A DNA stretch of 43,531 nt. Origin: a virus. The notes beneath the pieces are model-generated. The model had not been told where the DNA came from and ran no database searches. It saw nothing but the letters and a program-made list of their open reading frames with translations. The translations under genes were made by a program, and so were the position numbers. Location: positions 1-43,531 of IMG/VR virus record IMGVR_UViG_3300007515_000620; one strand, given 5' to 3'. Of the stretch, positions 22,623-38,207 are shown piece by piece. Within the stretch, counting starts at the first letter, position 1. Every line of letters begins with the position of its first letter.

Positions 22623-23135
22623 ATGGCTGAGTATAAAAATGAAGAACCTTGTGAATTTATTTACCACATAACCGCAGTAGAGAAAGTTGTCGATGGAGAT
22701 ACTATTGATGCCGTTATTGATTTGGGGTTTGATGTCAGATTTGCCGGAAGAGTACGATTGCTGGGAATCGACACCCCAGAGTCTAGAACTAGAGATTTGG
22801 AAGAAAAGTTTTATGGACTCCTCTCAAAGGATGCCCTCAAATCGTGGGTACATTGGGCCGTCATGTCGGACAGAGATGATATCGAAATTCAATTACGATG
22901 CCCAGAAGCAGACAGTAGAGGAAAATTTGGAAGAATCCTCGGAGAGCTCTGGATCAACTGCACTGCCGATGGAGAAGAGTTCTCAGGTTGGACCAATATA
23001 AATCAATGGATGTGTGAAAACGGACATGCGGTAGGATATCATGGACAAAATAAAGCCGATGTTCAATCTGCTCATATGGCAAACAGACAACTTCTCGAAG
23101 AAAGAGATGGAACAAAATATCAGGAATCTAATTAA
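22623..23135 (+). CDS. Staphylococcal nuclease-like (SNase/TNase) endonuclease
   Basis: 170 residues. VEKVVDGDTIDAVIDLGFD and VRLLGIDTPESR are the metal-binding and first catalytic blocks of the thermonuclease family (D24, D26, R45, D50, T51, E53), and SRGKFGRILGEL carries the second arginine region. No signal peptide is present, so it acts in the cytoplasm; host DNA breakdown or genome processing is plausible. An AAAGGA Shine-Dalgarno lies 3-8 bases before the ATG, immediately after the tmRNA. Codon use is somewhat richer in G/C than in the island upstream. Confidence 0.85.
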   Translation: MAEYKNEEPCEFIYHITAVEKVVDGDTIDAVIDLGFDVRFAGRVRLLGIDTPESRTRDLEEKFYGLLSKDALKSWVHWAVMSDRDDIEIQLRCPEADSRGKFGRILGELWINCTADGEEFSGWTNINQWMCENGHAVGYHGQNKADVQSAHMANRQLLEERDGTKYQESN

Positions 23136-24050: not shown

Positions 24051-24734
24051 ATGAATGAAAATAGAAAATGTGATCCAGCATTGGGTCAAAAAGTGCATGA
24101 GCATTTAGTTTCATTAGGTCTAGAAACTCCTGTAGTACCGGAGCGAAAAGATTTTGATTCTGAATTTGCTATTGAAAATATTAAAGGACATGTTGAAAAT
24201 ATTATGCGAGATCTGGGTTTAGATCTTACAGATGATTCATTGTGCGATACTCCAAAAAGGGTTGCGCAGATGTATGTTAATGAAATTTTTTGGGGTTTAG
24301 ATTATAATAAATTTCCAAAGTGTACAAAGATTGCAAACTCAATGAATTATAGAGGATCTTTTGTTCTCGAAAGAAACATAAATGTTCAATCATATTGTGA
24401 ACATCATTTTATCGTTATTGATGGTGTAGCATCTGTGGCGTATATTCCTCATGATGTTGTTTTAGGTCTTTCAAAATTAAATCGAATAGTTCAATTCTTT
24501 TCTAAAAGACCTCAGGTACAAGAAAGATTAACAGAACAAATACGAGCAACAATTGCATATGTTGCAGAAACAGAAGATGTCGCTGTTCAAATAGATGGTT
24601 TACACTTTTGTGTTAAATCTCGAGGTATACAAGACCTTCGATCTTCAACAGCAACATTTTCAGCATCCGGGCAATTCGAAGGAGGCGATGTACGCAGAGA
24701 ATTCTTAGCTGGATGTAGATCTTTAATGAGTTAA
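24051..24734 (+). CDS. folE: GTP cyclohydrolase I
   Basis: 227 residues. SYCEHHF (C116, H118, H119) is the zinc and catalytic block, GLSKLNRIVQFFSKRPQVQERLT is the signature helix region, and SRGIQD near the C-terminus completes the active site. It opens GTP to 7,8-dihydroneopterin triphosphate, the first step of both folate and 7-deazaguanine (preQ0) synthesis. The 40-residue N-terminal segment is looser. With a DpdA-like gene and queC just downstream, a role in preQ0 supply is more likely than folate. A perfect promoter precedes it, and an AAAGGA Shine-Dalgarno is present. Confidence 0.95.
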   Translation: MNENRKCDPALGQKVHEHLVSLGLETPVVPERKDFDSEFAIENIKGHVENIMRDLGLDLTDDSLCDTPKRVAQMYVNEIFWGLDYNKFPKCTKIANSMNYRGSFVLERNINVQSYCEHHFIVIDGVASVAYIPHDVVLGLSKLNRIVQFFSKRPQVQERLTEQIRATIAYVAETEDVAVQIDGLHFCVKSRGIQDLRSSTATFSASGQFEGGDVRREFLAGCRSLMS

Positions 24735-25595: not shown

Positions 25596-25818
25596 TAAGA
25601 TAGATCCCGAACATTATCACAGTAATACTCAACTAGAAGCTATTGATGTTATAGAGGCTTTTGATTTAAATTTTCATCGCGGAAATGTTGTTAAGTATGT
25701 ATTACGAGCTGGTAAGAAAACTGAAAAAGGTTATGAAAATAAAGATAAACAATTGGAAGATTTAAAAAAAGCAAAGTGGTATCTTGAAAGATTAATTAAA
25801 AACGTTAATGAAGGTTAA
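25588..25818 (+). CDS. DUF3310 family protein
   Basis: 76 residues. The pattern HYHSNTQLEAIDVIEAFDL, then FHRGNVVKYVLRAGKK, then QLEDLKKAKWYLERL is the DUF3310 (PF11753) signature common in phages. Biochemical role is not established. It overlaps the DpdA-like gene by 8 bases and the queC start region by 11. Confidence 0.8.
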   Translation: MANKIDPEHYHSNTQLEAIDVIEAFDLNFHRGNVVKYVLRAGKKTEKGYENKDKQLEDLKKAKWYLERLIKNVNEG

Positions 25819-26563
25819 TATGGATTTACGCGCGGCTAGAAGAGAGCTTCCAAAAATTAAAAATAATGTTGCTGTTATATTATCAGGTGGCATGGATAGT
25901 TCTATTGTTACGATGATGTTAGCTCGACATTATGGACCAGAAAAAGTATTTGCTTTAACTTTTAATTATGGTCAAAAACAAGCTATGGAATGTATGAAAG
26001 CTAAAGACTTATGTCGAGAATTGGGTGTATCCCAAAAGCAATTAGACATAGGATATTTTGGGCATTTAGTTCAACCCATTAGCGCAAACATATCTGGAAG
26101 TGATGTTGAGATGCCAACTATTAAAGATGTTTTAGGTGACCCTCAACCCCCAACATATGTTCCATTTAGAAATATGATGTTGTTAAGTAATGCATGCGCT
26201 TTTGCAGAAGTAGTAAAAGCAGAATATATATTTTGTGGGCTTCAAGTACATGATGAATATGGTTATTGGGATACGAGTCAAGCTTTTGTAGATGCATTAA
26301 ATGGCATCACTGCTCTAAATAGAACATTTAAAACAGAAATCATAGCACCATTTTCTTTATTAAGTAAAACAGAAGAACTTAAAATTTGTAAAGAGTTAGG
26401 AACATTTAATTTATTAGAACACACCTTAACATGTTATGATCCGGACGTTGAAGGTCGTAGTTGTGGTAGGTGCCCTTCTTGTTCCGAAAGAATAAAAGCT
26501 TTTGCAAATATACAAGAAACAGATCCGATACCATATCAAGTAGGATATAAGAAAGGTGATTAA
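25808..26563 (+). CDS. queC: 7-cyano-7-deazaguanine (preQ0) synthase
   Basis: 251 residues. LSGGMDSS (25-32) is the PP-loop; FNYGQKQ and PFRNMMLLSNA are QueC-specific blocks; CYDPDVEGRSCGRCPSCSER is the zinc site. QueC converts 7-carboxy-7-deazaguanine to preQ0 using ATP and ammonia. Two starts are possible: ATG 25808, inside the previous gene, or ATG 25820, which has a GAAGG Shine-Dalgarno at the right distance and gives a protein beginning MDLRAARR; the second is perhaps better. The adjacent amidotransferase gene overlaps its last base. Confidence 0.93.
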   Translation: MKVNMDLRAARRELPKIKNNVAVILSGGMDSSIVTMMLARHYGPEKVFALTFNYGQKQAMECMKAKDLCRELGVSQKQLDIGYFGHLVQPISANISGSDVEMPTIKDVLGDPQPPTYVPFRNMMLLSNACAFAEVVKAEYIFCGLQVHDEYGYWDTSQAFVDALNGITALNRTFKTEIIAPFSLLSKTEELKICKELGTFNLLEHTLTCYDPDVEGRSCGRCPSCSERIKAFANIQETDPIPYQVGYKKGD

Positions 26564-29694: not shown

Positions 29695-32010
29695 TTATTT
29701 CCTCTTTTTGATTGGATCTCGACGTGCATTCGCATCTGTTTGTGTAACTGTGGGCATTGTAAAATTTTGTGTATTGTTATTCTGATTAGATTGAATGAGG
29801 TTCCCTGATTGTGACGCTGATTTCGCATCTGCGAGCGCTGCTTTTTGTTTTTCCGCTTCTATTTCTTTTTCTCTAAGTTTTGCCCATTGATCCTCTCCCA
29901 CTTTTGCGCGTATTTTAGCTCTCTCTTCCATTTCATCTGATAGTAACATGCCGGCAACTGTTGTATTGCCTTGTTTTATTAAACTCGCGCCCATCATTGT
30001 CATAATGTTATCCCAACTTAGGAAATTCATTAGCTTATCCCAAATATTGGATATTGCTTCTCCGAGATATGAAAATAAATTTTTAATACCGTTAAACAAT
30101 GAAAAATTTCCATCGGCGTCTCTTAAATTTTCATCAATAAATTTTACTGCATTATCAAAACCCATTTTTTCTAATATCCAAGCGACGGCTTCACCTAAGA
30201 GATTTGGAATAAACATTAATACATCATCAAATATAGATTCTATTCCGGCCCCTATCGCTCCAGTAATTCCGCCTTCTTCATAACCTTTCATAACATTTGA
30301 TATAACATCAAATGCAGAAAATAGAATCCCAATAGGTATAAAAATTCTACCGAAAATCTTACCGATTACTTTTACAACTTTTAATATTCCTTTTATTGGT
30401 TTCATCCAATCACCCAATGGAGAAACTATAGCTTTAAATGTTTTAGCAACTTTAGTGAAAACTCCTTCTGGACCAAATGCCGCGGCTGTTGAAGCCTTAA
30501 TACTTTTAAACATTTCGGTCGGCTTAGCTAGAGAATCCGGACTTAAAAAACCCATAGTACCAAAACTTAATACATTTGTTAGTTTAAAAAATCCTTTCGT
30601 AATCTTCCACAAAGTTCCTAATACATTATCTATTCCAGTTAGGAAACCTGTTTTCATTTTCATTAAGGTACTGCCTTCATCAAACATTGGCATCTTAAAA
30701 AAGTTTCCCATTTTTCCACTAAAATTAGTTTTTGCTTTAGAAACAGCCTCACTTATATCATCACCTATGTTGAAAATTTTACCTTTCAATTTAGAAAACA
30801 TGCCTTGTTTTTTTAATTCAACACCGTCAACGTCTGATGGATCTAATCCTAACATTTTTAATTGTTTAGCGAAGAAAGATTCTTTTGCAATTTTGCTAGC
30901 ATCAACAGCGCCTTCGCCTATATCTAACATTTTAGATTGGGTTTTTAGGAATTTTATTTTATCAGCTTTTGATAAATCAGCGGCGTCATCAGCCCAGGCC
31001 AACATTTTAGATTGATCTTTTAGAAATTTGACTTTAGTTTTATCTATACCATCTGTATGTTCCGCCATCCATGATAACATTTTGGATTGCTTTTTCAAGA
31101 ATTTGGCTTTATCTGTATCTGCTATACCTTCTGCCTGATCTGCCCACTTCAACATATTTTGTTGCATATTCATAAATTTTAATTTATTCGCATCTGTCAA
31201 TTTTTCGGAATCACCGGCCCATGCTAACATTTTACTTAATTGTTTGGAAAAATTTCCTTTCCAACTTTTCGACGTAGCCTCTGTAGCATCATCAAATTTT
31301 AAATATTTCTTTATATTATCAAAAAAACCTGTTTTATTTTTTGAGAGTTCATCTGGGAATGATTGATTAAATCCAAAATATTTTCCTAACTTAAAAAAGA
31401 ACCCACTCTTTTTTACTTTAAGATCATCAATTGCTTTAGTATCATCGGCAAAACCGAAAAAACTTTTTAATTTTGAAAAGAAACCAGCTTTTGGCTTACC
31501 CATCTCATCTAAAGTTTTTCCTCCAGTGTTCCACCAATCTCCCCACTTAGTTTTAAAAGCTAAAAATCCAGCACCCATTGCTGCGAAAGTACCAGTAAGT
31601 ATTCCGGCGGCATCTGCCCAACCCAATTCTAAGTCACCTTTGCTATCAGTCCCACCACCTCCGGGTTTTCCATCTTTCTTCATCCGCGCGGCTTCCATGG
31701 CGGCTTCTAATCTTTTGCGTTCAGCATCTTTTGTGAAATCTAAATAATCTTTAAAAAGATTTGCGGTTAGAAGTGTATTTGCACCGACGTTTTGTAGTAA
31801 ATTGTTACTTAGATCATTCCCGCGAACCACGCTTGTAAAATGCGAATCCTGTTTATCAAAATTAGATTTCATTTGATTTACCATCATCGCACCAGTCACG
31901 CCATCCGCATTTAAATGAGAAGAGACTTCATCCTGCCACGCTTTGCGCGAAGCCATTTCATTGGGATCAGTTTTTGTTACACCTTGTACGTTAACCGTTT
32001 CTTCAGCCAT
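29695..32010 (-). CDS. Tail tape measure protein with 25-residue repeats
   Basis: 771 residues, rich in K, A, G and F. The N-terminal 110 residues are helical. From residue 176 to about 454 it is built of about eleven tandem units near 25 residues long, each opening with an aromatic pair or F-L/F-x-K (for example FLKKQSKMLSW, FLKDQSKMLAW, FLKTQSKML). Hydrophobic segments follow (around 135-155 and 570-640, IFGRIFIPIGILFSAFDVI), as is normal for tape measures. It stands directly after the frameshifting gp26 gene, the universal place for a tape measure. It sets tail length and is later ejected. AAGGA lies 8 bases before the ATG. Confidence 0.85.
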   Translation of the reverse strand: MAEETVNVQGVTKTDPNEMASRKAWQDEVSSHLNADGVTGAMMVNQMKSNFDKQDSHFTSVVRGNDLSNNLLQNVGANTLLTANLFKDYLDFTKDAERKRLEAAMEAARMKKDGKPGGGGTDSKGDLELGWADAAGILTGTFAAMGAGFLAFKTKWGDWWNTGGKTLDEMGKPKAGFFSKLKSFFGFADDTKAIDDLKVKKSGFFFKLGKYFGFNQSFPDELSKNKTGFFDNIKKYLKFDDATEATSKSWKGNFSKQLSKMLAWAGDSEKLTDANKLKFMNMQQNMLKWADQAEGIADTDKAKFLKKQSKMLSWMAEHTDGIDKTKVKFLKDQSKMLAWADDAADLSKADKIKFLKTQSKMLDIGEGAVDASKIAKESFFAKQLKMLGLDPSDVDGVELKKQGMFSKLKGKIFNIGDDISEAVSKAKTNFSGKMGNFFKMPMFDEGSTLMKMKTGFLTGIDNVLGTLWKITKGFFKLTNVLSFGTMGFLSPDSLAKPTEMFKSIKASTAAAFGPEGVFTKVAKTFKAIVSPLGDWMKPIKGILKVVKVIGKIFGRIFIPIGILFSAFDVISNVMKGYEEGGITGAIGAGIESIFDDVLMFIPNLLGEAVAWILEKMGFDNAVKFIDENLRDADGNFSLFNGIKNLFSYLGEAISNIWDKLMNFLSWDNIMTMMGASLIKQGNTTVAGMLLSDEMEERAKIRAKVGEDQWAKLREKEIEAEKQKAALADAKSASQSGNLIQSNQNNNTQNFTMPTVTQTDANARRDPIKKRK
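30649..31485 (-). repeat. About eleven 25-residue repeats in the tape measure gene
   Basis: Six consecutive units (residues 279-428) are exactly 25 residues long; flanking units are 25-27. Most begin with F or G-F-F/N-F-S and have K near positions 3-4 and 7, with hydrophobic residues at 8-9. DNA identity between units is low to moderate, so the repeat is kept at protein level. Confidence 0.85.
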
Positions 32011-32023
32011 TTATTATTCCTTG

Positions 32024-32928
32024 TTATTGATTTCTATATTTAGCTGCTTCTTGTTCCATTCTTTCGTTTTCTTCTTCAATAAATTCTAATAATAATGTAA
32101 GATATATTTCTCTTTCATAACAAATTAAATTTTCTAGCTCAGCTAAGCTCCATTTATGACTTTGAACTATAGCGAATAGAGTTCTATAATAGTTATGTAA
32201 ACTATTATGACTGAGCGCTAGCCGAAAAAAGATTGTAGCCCCTCCAAGACTACATCTTGTTTTTTATTACATTTTTGACAAGTAAAATTTAATGTATGCC
32301 TTAATTTTGGCATAGTATTAAAAAATGCAATGATCTTTCCGAATTGCTGTTGATTTAAAGACATAATAAAATCTTCTAATTCTTTTTCTGTGTAATCTTT
32401 AATATCATGCATTTCCGTACCATCTTGAATTGTATCTATGCACGCTTTAGTTATTTCAAAAATAGAATCCATTTGAGATTCATCAGGAGGCCTTGTCATC
32501 CTATCAATGTCAGGATATTTTAATTTAACTTTTATTTTTTCAGTTAGTTCTACTACATCATGATGGCCTTTTCCGGTTTCTAAAGAAACATCATCAAGAT
32601 CAATTTTGGTTGGCGTTTGACCTTCACAATCTTTATTTTTACAAGTCAAATTAATTTCAACATTTTGTCCAACTGATCGTGCTCTTAAATTTAGAAAAAA
32701 TAATTCTATATCAAAAGCAGGAAGTTTTTCAACTTCAATATCATCCGTAAGACAACAATTTTTAATGATTTCTTTTGTGGCTCTTACAATATCACCTGTA
32801 TCGCCACCCTCTAAGGCAGTTAATAGAATCTTTTCTTCTTTAACTAAAAAGGGCCTATATTTTATTTTTTGATCCACACTATGTAATTTAAGTTCATATG
32901 TGGGATTATTCACGGTTGGTAAAGCCAT
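32024..32928 (-). CDS. gp26 frameshift fusion product (tail assembly chaperone, long form)
   Basis: A -1 shift at the T-TTT-TTC slippery site joins the first 235 residues of gp26 to a 66-residue extension in the -1 frame, giving 301 residues. The extension reads RLALSHNSLHNYYRTLFAIV, then QSHKWSLAELENLICYERE, and ends KYRNQ. It has no ATG, GTG or TTG start near its beginning, yet is open for 66 codons and runs to just before the tape measure gene. HKWSLAELENL..YERE resembles the W..EL/I..m...ER motif of other phage tail chaperone extensions. By analogy with lambda G/GT, a small share of ribosomes would make this form, which contacts the tape measure. Confidence 0.85.
32218..32928 (-). CDS. 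gp26: T4 gp26-like baseplate/tail assembly chaperone, short form
   Basis: 236 residues. It fits the T4_baseplate (gp26) family: an N-terminal domain with KEEKILLTALEGGDTGDI, then a zinc ribbon formed by C96, C101, C217 and C220 (LTCKNKDCEG and FTCQKCNKKQD). T4 gp26 is needed for hub assembly. Its last codons, TCT TTT TTC GGC TAG, contain the frameshift site, so this is the main, unshifted product. A GGAG ribosome site lies before the ATG, in the short gap after the tube gene. Confidence 0.85.
   Translation of the reverse strand: MALPTVNNPTYELKLHSVDQKIKYRPFLVKEEKILLTALEGGDTGDIVRATKEIIKNCCLTDDIEVEKLPAFDIELFFLNLRARSVGQNVEINLTCKNKDCEGQTPTKIDLDDVSLETGKGHHDVVELTEKIKVKLKYPDIDRMTRPPDESQMDSIFEITKACIDTIQDGTEMHDIKDYTEKELEDFIMSLNQQQFGKIIAFFNTMPKLRHTLNFTCQKCNKKQDVVLEGLQSFFG
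32224..32230 (-). promoter_or_regulatory. Programmed -1 ribosomal frameshift site
   Basis: On the - strand the heptamer TTTTTTC is read T-TTT-TTC in the gp26 frame, the X-XXY-YYZ form, two codons before the TAG. A perfect 9-bp hairpin (ATAATAGTT, loop TACAT, AACTATTAT) begins 15 bases downstream and may stimulate the shift; the spacing is longer than the usual 5-9. Confidence 0.85.
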
Positions 32929-32963: not shown

Positions 32964-33593
32964 TTACGGGGCCAATCCGGATTCCGTTAGTTCCTGTCCG
33001 GTTTCTTTTACAAATTCATTCGGGACTGTATAACCTCCGGCACCGGATACCGGTTCCCATCTTTTATAATGAAACGTCACATTAAATTTTCCTACTGTAT
33101 TCGTCTGATCCCAGCCCAAAGTAATTGGATCAACTACTGTTGGAAATGCTTCTAAATATTTAACCCCGGATGTTGCTTCTGATGGGCTCACGGACGATGA
33201 ATCCTGGGCGAACATATAAACAGTGATTTGACCTTTGTATTCGGATTGGTATGATATGTCTCCGGAAATTGGATCAACAGCCGAATCTATCCACTTTAAA
33301 AATCCATGTCTAACTATGTGGGAATTTGTTAATATAAATCCTAATGAAATTTCCCCGTAGGTTTGTTCTCTTGCTATTTTTCGGGTAGGCCCATAATGTC
33401 TTAATTCAGAGGTTGCTACCGTTCTTCCCGGCATTGGAACTGTATCACAATGATATAATGTATCTTCCCCTTGTGGCCAGTCTGCCTTGCTACCTTTGGG
33501 AAAAGTGATTTGAGCAGCAAATCTATTTAAAGGAGCCAGTCCTTTATGTTTATCTATAGACGATACAAATTTATCTACTGAAAACTGGTCCAT
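32964..33593 (-). CDS. Tail tube fold protein, likely gp54-like baseplate tube initiator
   Basis: 209 residues. LAPLNRFAAQITFP, VPMPGRTVATSELRHYGPTRKIAREQTYGEISLGFI and WIDSAVDPISGD are the blocks shared by T4 gp19 tail tube and gp54 tube-initiator proteins. Placement beside gp4, gp26 and the tape measure favours gp54, but the length is nearer gp19 (163) than gp54 (320). It would join the inner tube to the baseplate hub. The gene overlaps its upstream neighbour by one base. Confidence 0.7.
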   Translation of the reverse strand: MDQFSVDKFVSSIDKHKGLAPLNRFAAQITFPKGSKADWPQGEDTLYHCDTVPMPGRTVATSELRHYGPTRKIAREQTYGEISLGFILTNSHIVRHGFLKWIDSAVDPISGDISYQSEYKGQITVYMFAQDSSSVSPSEATSGVKYLEAFPTVVDPITLGWDQTNTVGKFNVTFHYKRWEPVSGAGGYTVPNEFVKETGQELTESGLAP

Positions 33594-36185: not shown

Positions 36186-38207
36186 ATGGCCATAGGTGAT
36201 CCGAATGCAATAGTAAGGGTAGAAAAGCCTCCCCAAATAAGATCTCCAATAGATTCAGAGACTCCAGGCAGAAAAACTAAGACTAAAGATGTTATGCAGC
36301 CGGGAGAGTATATAATATCTAAGGCTGAGTTAAGATCCCCAAATATTCAGATAAAGGATCCAGATACTGGTAAAGGTGTTAATATTATACCTGTATTAGG
36401 AGCAGTACACGTTTATGAAGATATTTCTAAACCTTACCTATTAGCGGATTTTGAAATTCGTGATGGATTAGGTCTCAGAGAACAGATCCCTATTATAGGA
36501 GAAGAATATATCGTATATGAGGCTAGTACTCTAAACTATACTCCTGCAGAAAATGAACCGGGTAATCCTTTAGATGGTATTGTTAAAAAAACTTTTAGAA
36601 TATATTCTACTTCCCCTATAGTTGATAATTCTCCAACTATGAAAACATATGTTCTTCATGGTATTTCATGTGAAGCTATTATTAGTGAAAAGAGGAAAAT
36701 AAGTAAAGGTTATACTGGAGCAAAAATTGAAAGAGTAGTTAAAGATATTTACGAAAATTATATCGCGAAACCAGTATCTACTTTTTATAATGCATATGTA
36801 CCGGAAGGGCCTAAAAAACTTATAATCGAACCGACAGATGATACATTTGATTTCTGTTTTCCTTTCAAGAGCCCTTTTGATATTATTGAAGACTTAGCAG
36901 AAAAAGCTATACCCGCTCCACCGGAAGATGACGATGCAGGATTTCAAACCGCCGATGCTGAAGAGGAGATACCAGAAGAGGTTCAACCATCTGACGGCGC
37001 CCTATATATGTTTTATGAAACTCTATCATGTTTTAAATTTGAAAGTATAGAAACAAGTTTCAAAAGAGACCCCAAACGAACTTTTGTATCAACTGTTTCA
37101 ACAGAACATCACCCCGATGAAATGCAGATGAGAACACATGTACCGGGACAACTTAATAATGCAGAAGAATATACCGTTGAAAGTCTTTTTGACATTGTTG
37201 AAAATATGAGAGAAGGAATGTATGCCTCTAAATTAATAACTCATGATATAGTTCGAATGAGGTATGATCAGATAGGATATAGATATATTGAAAGAAAGGA
37301 TGTAGCCATAGCAGAAGCACTGGCACAGGAATCAGACGGAACAACTACTATCGGAGGGAAATCTCCAGATTTAGATACTTCAAAAAAGAGATTAATAGAT
37401 TTAACACGACAACTCGGTGCCGGTAAACTTTGTTCATATAATCATGATTGTTTACTTGATGATTCAAGTGGTGAAGGATCACTCGTAAGGTTTACAAGTA
37501 CAGATTTAAATCATAGATATCATTTAGAATTTAATAGAAAGGGGCCTGGTAGCGTAGGGGGATTTGAACCAGGAATTAATGAAGCAAATAAAGAAGCGAG
37601 AATACAAAAAAGAGGATCACAATTACAACAACTTGATAATATAAGAATTTCAATTAAAGTTCCTGGAGATTCTTCTCTAAGAGTGGGTGATATTGTAGAA
37701 TGGAAAATGCCATCTCAAATTAGAAACGAGTTTCATCATGGTGATGATGATTTTTTCTTGGGTGGTAAATATCTTATAACTAAAATAAAACACGGATTTA
37801 CAGAACGAAGATATACTCAAGAAATTCAACTTAGAAAAGATTCTTTACATAATTGGGCCCCGAGTGCAGATGAAAAACAGATAATAACTGAAAAGAGCGC
37901 GCTTACAGATACTACTGGCCAAGCAAGGGTCGAAGACATGGGTTACTCAAACGCGATGGATACTAAAATTGGTCCTGTGGGAATAGTGCCAAACGCAGAC
38001 ACGCAGGACGGAGAAGCAGAAACAGCATCTTCGGGGTCCGGACCGTGGTTTGATTTAGCAGGTAATGTGATAGATGAGCGCGAATATAATGGGGAACTCG
38101 CGGGTCCTTTTGACCCTCCGGGACGGCCATTGGGTACCGAAGGAAGTACTTATTTCGCGAGTAGAGAAGCAGCAGACGCACAAAGAGAGCCACCAATTGA
38201 GTATTAA
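36186..38207 (+). CDS. gp27-like baseplate hub protein, extended
   Basis: 673 residues (T4 gp27: 391). The N-terminal half, from about residue 50, reads as the hub tube-fold: IKDPDTGKGVNIIPVLGAVHVYEDISKPYLLADFEIRDGLGLREQIPIIGEEYIVYEA, then TYVLHGISCEAIISEKRKISKGYTG. An acidic spacer rich in E, D and P (about 240-270) and a C-terminal tail rich in D, E, G and P follow. In T4 gp27 forms the trimer that seats the gp5 spike, and the gp5-like gene is next. Confidence 0.72.
   Translation: MAIGDPNAIVRVEKPPQIRSPIDSETPGRKTKTKDVMQPGEYIISKAELRSPNIQIKDPDTGKGVNIIPVLGAVHVYEDISKPYLLADFEIRDGLGLREQIPIIGEEYIVYEASTLNYTPAENEPGNPLDGIVKKTFRIYSTSPIVDNSPTMKTYVLHGISCEAIISEKRKISKGYTGAKIERVVKDIYENYIAKPVSTFYNAYVPEGPKKLIIEPTDDTFDFCFPFKSPFDIIEDLAEKAIPAPPEDDDAGFQTADAEEEIPEEVQPSDGALYMFYETLSCFKFESIETSFKRDPKRTFVSTVSTEHHPDEMQMRTHVPGQLNNAEEYTVESLFDIVENMREGMYASKLITHDIVRMRYDQIGYRYIERKDVAIAEALAQESDGTTTIGGKSPDLDTSKKRLIDLTRQLGAGKLCSYNHDCLLDDSSGEGSLVRFTSTDLNHRYHLEFNRKGPGSVGGFEPGINEANKEARIQKRGSQLQQLDNIRISIKVPGDSSLRVGDIVEWKMPSQIRNEFHHGDDDFFLGGKYLITKIKHGFTERRYTQEIQLRKDSLHNWAPSADEKQIITEKSALTDTTGQARVEDMGYSNAMDTKIGPVGIVPNADTQDGEAETASSGSGPWFDLAGNVIDEREYNGELAGPFDPPGRPLGTEGSTYFASREAADAQREPPIEY

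Follow-up and report, generated by a model that had tools for sequence, protein, structure and literature searches.

The window, the full 43,531-nucleotide stretch of DNA analyzed here, comes from a virus record and represents part of the genome of a T4-like marine phage. Its minus strand carries, in order, a gp4-type head-closure gene, a DNA end protector gene, a tail-tube-family gene, a gp26-type gene, a gp51-type frame and an ORF of 771 aa, beyond which gp32 lies on the opposite strand (Table 1). The 771-aa ORF is the gene in which a preliminary description, made from the letters of the window, had placed a tape measure protein with a 25-residue repeat (30649-31485, minus strand, corresponding to aa 176-454). 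Elsewhere in the window are genes for a Staphylococcal-nuclease-like protein, GTP cyclohydrolase I and QueC, the latter two of which are suggestive of a pathway for deazaguanine modification of DNA or tRNA.

Table 1. Features of the window and of related contigs (positions are those of the window unless a contig is named).
Feature	Position	Strand	Basis or remark
Staphylococcal-nuclease-like protein	22623-23135	+	
GTP cyclohydrolase I	24051-24734	+	
QueC	25808-26563	+	
771-aa ORF, very probable tail tape measure protein	29695..32010	-	gene position and homologous domain in Melnitz-3
Conserved hydrophobic domain, aa 515-650	30061..30468	-	common to Melnitz-3 QZI95057.1
Ten tandem units, each exactly 25 aa (aa 197-446)	30673..31422	-	self-comparison; length-locked in relatives
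First, looser unit (aa 172-196), 27-28 spacing to next	31423..31497	-	2-3 aa shorter in some relatives
gp51-type frame, -1 relative to gp26	32024..32224 (or ..32230)	-	open frame from slip
gp26-type tail assembly chaperone / 'baseplate hub'	32218..32928	-	PF12322, 6.7e-65
Slippery heptamer T TTT TTC, 3' end of gp26	32224..32230	-	invariant in 46/46 distinct marine T4-like loci
Shine-Dalgarno-like GAGGGG	32239..32244	-	about 9-14 nt upstream of slip; GG invariant
Tail-tube-family protein (phrog_45)	32964..33593	-	HTVC008M gene at this position annotated tube initiator
673-aa phrog_350 'tail protein', alternative ruler candidate	36186-38207		
Peptidase_S74-like domain	L015:5253-5480	+	
Peptidase_S74-like domain	L054:4597-4824	-	
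Peptidase_S74-like domain	L014:10221-10427	+	

When the 771-aa protein is compared with itself, the 25-residue period stands out clearly. Between aa 151 and 460 the autocorrelation at lag 25 gives 78 identities where 24 are expected (z 11.9), the signal recurs at 50 and 75, and lag 25 is also the top local self-match over lags of 7-110, with a score of 33.6; no significant period of 11 or 18 aa was found in the ORF over these lags. The register is exact over ten consecutive units, running from GFFFKLGKYFGF to TNFSGKMGNFF, and is flanked by a first unit that is 2-3 aa out of phase and by a degenerate unit after the block. The tandem repeat claimed earlier is thereby confirmed, although its count of about eleven units, six of them of exactly 25 residues, becomes ten in exact register plus a looser unit at either end. 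The 25-aa repeats make up about a third of the protein, namely its middle third. The consensus unit starts with K-x-x-F-[FL] and ends with M/L-L-x-[WF]; aromatic residues occupy unit positions 8, 9 and 18 in 70, 47 and 54% of cases, and glycine and proline are enriched at positions 7, 17, 20 and 23-25. Because neighboring units share at most 52% of their residues (0-52%) and at most 61% of their DNA (25-61%), this is an old protein repeat and not a recent DNA duplication. The region is rich in Lys, Phe and Met, as would be expected if the signal came from chance or compositional bias, for example in a Lys/Phe-rich helix; however, none of 2000 shuffles that kept global or local composition approached the observed score (1000 whole-protein shuffles reached at most 8.4, and 1000 local ones at most 9.1), and the 25-aa period is present in every relative. 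The compositional reading is therefore refuted, with a negligible probability left to it.

Scans with the ORF and its neighbors yielded a family of 18 near-complete members, the window included, at an identity of at least 44%. The stretch corresponding to aa 204-453 is 250 aa long in 15 of the 18 and 249 aa in two, while one member, L044, is short by exactly 25 aa, or one unit; its N-terminal part is also shorter. Indels per 100 aa per relative amount to 0.07 in the block, whereas the stretch preceding the block has 2.2, the hydrophobic part 0.24 and the C-terminus 4.45. The repeat is unusually regular and length-locked, and from the scarcity of indels in the block, together with the absence of exactly one unit from L044, it follows that a change in length is tolerated almost only in whole units. 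The most conserved portion of the protein in the family alignment is the hydrophobic domain at aa 515-650.

AlphaFold models built with the family alignments were of low confidence (mean pLDDT of 38 for the whole protein and 48 for the repeats alone, with about 60 in the central units), and they were therefore used only for helix boundaries. In the full-protein model, helices are predicted at residues 244-266, 273-292, 298-318 and 324-345, so that each central unit has one helix of ~20 residues separated from the next by a break of 5-7 residues, and the same is seen in the repeat-only run. The proposal of alpha-helical repeats is thus supported at low confidence as far as helix content goes, but the continuous 37 Å helix per unit that went with it is lacking from the monomer model, as the helix is interrupted once in every unit. 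A simple amphipathic rod was considered and not adopted: Fourier analysis of hydrophobicity gives harmonics of 25 (8.4, 3.15 and 3.6) with no clean dominance of 3.6.

Upstream of the ORF, the gp26 frame terminates in CTTTTTTCGGCTAG, and from the slippery heptamer at its 3' end a -1 frame is open through gp51; ahead of the conserved core, this frame has no ATG, GTG or TTG in the window. Comparison of 46 distinct marine T4-like loci (L002-L105), cyanophage P-SSM4 among them, found T TTT TTC and a purine-rich Shine-Dalgarno-like block with an invariant GG in every one, and the -1 extension past the slip is 59-67 aa long. The heptamer also occurs in P-HM1, Stenotrophomonas phage Marzo, Vibrio phage K566 and Rhizobium phage LG08; it is replaced by a T8 run in Melnitz-3 and HTVC008M and by a T6G run in Rhizobium phage N34, and is absent from Vibrio K444 and EP75. 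A fused gp26-gp51 profile gives a match to T4 gp51 that spans the junction (1.8e-9) and one to T4 gp26 that runs as far as the junction (5e-19). As in the G/GT pair of lambda, the first gene ends with a slippery heptamer and the -1 frame leading into the second is open, and the invariant T-TTT-TTC is a predicted -1 slip site joining gp26 to gp51 in the marine T4-like loci. T4 was described as the exception to G-T frameshifting in a 2016 review (PMC5009743). The short/long relation between T4 gp26 and gp51 is already in the literature (Vladimirov et al. 2022, as cited in PMC10885494), and in the form quoted there some T4-like phages have separate short and long chaperone genes without frameshifting, a view which the marine slip-site pattern fits. 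In the public records examined, gp51 is annotated as a separate gene.

The tape measure gene of lambda-like phages classically follows right after the chaperone pair, and the 771-aa ORF likewise lies directly downstream of the tail-tube and tail assembly chaperone genes. It encodes a long protein, mainly helical by low-confidence prediction, with hydrophobic segments. Pelagibacter phage HTVC008M has nearly the same gene order, and its protein at this position, AGE60354.1 (687 aa, 'putative tail tape measure'), resembles that of the window in its aromatic repeats and hydrophobic stretches, but it has four 33-aa units, and profile comparison does not link it directly to the window family. In the OM43 phage Melnitz-3 the same position is taken by QZI95057.1 (742 aa; L142:6252-8480), annotated as a 'hypothetical protein', in which the window-family profile finds the hydrophobic domain (HMM 3.3e-15, hhalign 97%) and which in turn matches the HTVC008M protein (BLASTP 4e-8). 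N-terminal of the shared domain it has three to four units of 31 aa, compared with ten of 25 in the window. Judged by this homology, QZI95057.1 is probably the tape measure of this cultured phage; the Melnitz paper reports contractile tails, and a tail length was not found in it.

The searches for known tape measures were negative: scans of the 771-aa ORF gave no Pfam match and no significant PHROG match, and cultured phages gave no tblastn match to the full-length ORF. T4 gp29 (590 aa), with which the function is presumed to be in common, shows no homology to the ORF by sequence or profile (hhalign 0.4%), has no significant repeat and sits in a different gene neighborhood. Since tape measure proteins are highly divergent, the lack of homology to an experimentally proven one among T4 gp29, Pfam and PHROGs lowers the claim only a little. 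It does leave some room for the view that the ORF encodes a structural protein of the virion or baseplate, or a pilot protein that is ejected, at the tape measure position and that another gene, for which the 673-aa phrog_350 protein is a candidate, acts as the ruler; the authors of a study of pelagimyophages, moreover, were unable to recognize the tape measure from similarity (PMC7029224). This view is unlikely given the place of the ORF after the chaperone pair (for the role of tail assembly chaperones, see PMC5009743), the annotation of a putative tape measure at the same place in HTVC008M, and the length, predicted helicity and hydrophobic domain of the protein. As the preliminary description proposed, the 771-aa ORF is very probably the tape measure protein, and it would add a tape measure gene family in marine T4-like phages, where similarity had failed the earlier authors (PMC7029224).

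Among the closest known likenesses to the repeat is the tape measure protein of lactococcal phage TP901-1, which also has tandem helical repeats marked by Trp or Phe as well as hydrophobic segments (PMC5099701). There, 29 units of 11 or 18 aa are present in place of the ten units of 25, each with a predicted break, in the window; and shortening of the TP901-1 tail has been measured (PMC5099701). Set against the class of 11/18-residue aromatic repeats (TP901-1, p2), the window repeat shares the aromatics at fixed positions but not the unit length. Published units of this class measure 11 and 18 aa, the two lengths seen in TP901-1 (PMC5099701), and also 40 = 11+11+18; 25 equals 18+7. The earlier suggestion that 25 is a doubled unit of 11 or 13 residues fails, as the doubles would be 22 or 26 and a half-period signal is absent.

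It had also been proposed that each unit corresponds to one ring of the tail tube. At 1.45-1.5 Å per residue, 25 aa would extend over 36-37.5 Å, the lower value being the 0.145 nm per residue measured for TP901-1 (PMC5099701), and in T4 the 590 aa of gp29 divided over 23 rings (138 gp19 copies) leave no more than 25.7 aa for each ring. The block is length-locked and its sole large deletion is exactly one unit, a loss that ring matching predicts equally well, and the occurrence of units of 26 or 51-54 aa in several other lineages keeps the idea alive, albeit at low probability. At 1.45 Å per residue, however, a 40 Å ring corresponds to about 27 residues, which fits better than 25, and units of 25 would drift by ~0.6-1 ring over ten. 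The model shows an interrupted unit helix, the repeats span only about a third of the protein, and in TP901-1 a repeat can be replaced by alanines with infectivity kept (PMC5099701). Above all, homologous or same-position genes of related marine phages, in which the rise of the tube ring is presumably common, have units of 11, 18, 26, 30, 31, 33, 36, 52 and 77 aa. As unit lengths differ at the same position, unit length appears free to vary, and packing better explains the conservation of phase. The ring-step reading is thus unproven and disfavored, and we regard it as improbable. A version confined to this lineage, in which the 25-aa unit would be in register with the tube rings, one per ring over ten, and so form a genetically countable ruler, is slightly less probable still. 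If it were true, L044 would be a natural mutant with a tail one ring shorter, plus the effect of its shorter N-terminal part.

The explanation that we favor, with a probability of roughly 70%, is that of a tape measure with an old repeat whose phase is kept by packing and not by rings. By analogy with lambda and T4, gp26 and the frameshifted gp26-gp51 form would coat the tape measure during assembly and load tube subunits, and the length of the extended tape measure would fix the count of stacked tube rings. Its middle third would consist of ten helical 25-aa units, each made up of a ~20-residue helix and a short interruption and bearing aromatics at set positions; the repeat is best explained by old internal amplification. 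Packing between the units, or with the chaperones or sister chains, would then hold the phase such that only whole-unit changes survive, with no one-to-one match to the tube rings. Together with its 31-aa and 33-aa relatives, the 25-aa family offers a natural series in which to ask whether the repeats are read against rings or pack together.

Two further contigs (L078 and L079) have tape measure candidates at the same position with nearly seven hydrophobic repeats of 77 aa, which are unusual in being Gly/Ala/Leu-rich and not Lys/Phe-rich. In five related contigs (L015, L054, L014, L032 and L031) a Peptidase_S74-like (endosialidase chaperone) domain of ~76 aa was observed; in those contigs that have the whole gene, it lies at the extreme C-terminal end of the tape measure protein. 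Domains of this kind usually trimerize fiber proteins, and its presence here may bear on the copy number of the tape measure. Between L015 and L054 the DNA of the domain is 98% identical while the rest of the tape measures is far more diverged, and the domain therefore looks like a recently exchanged cassette.
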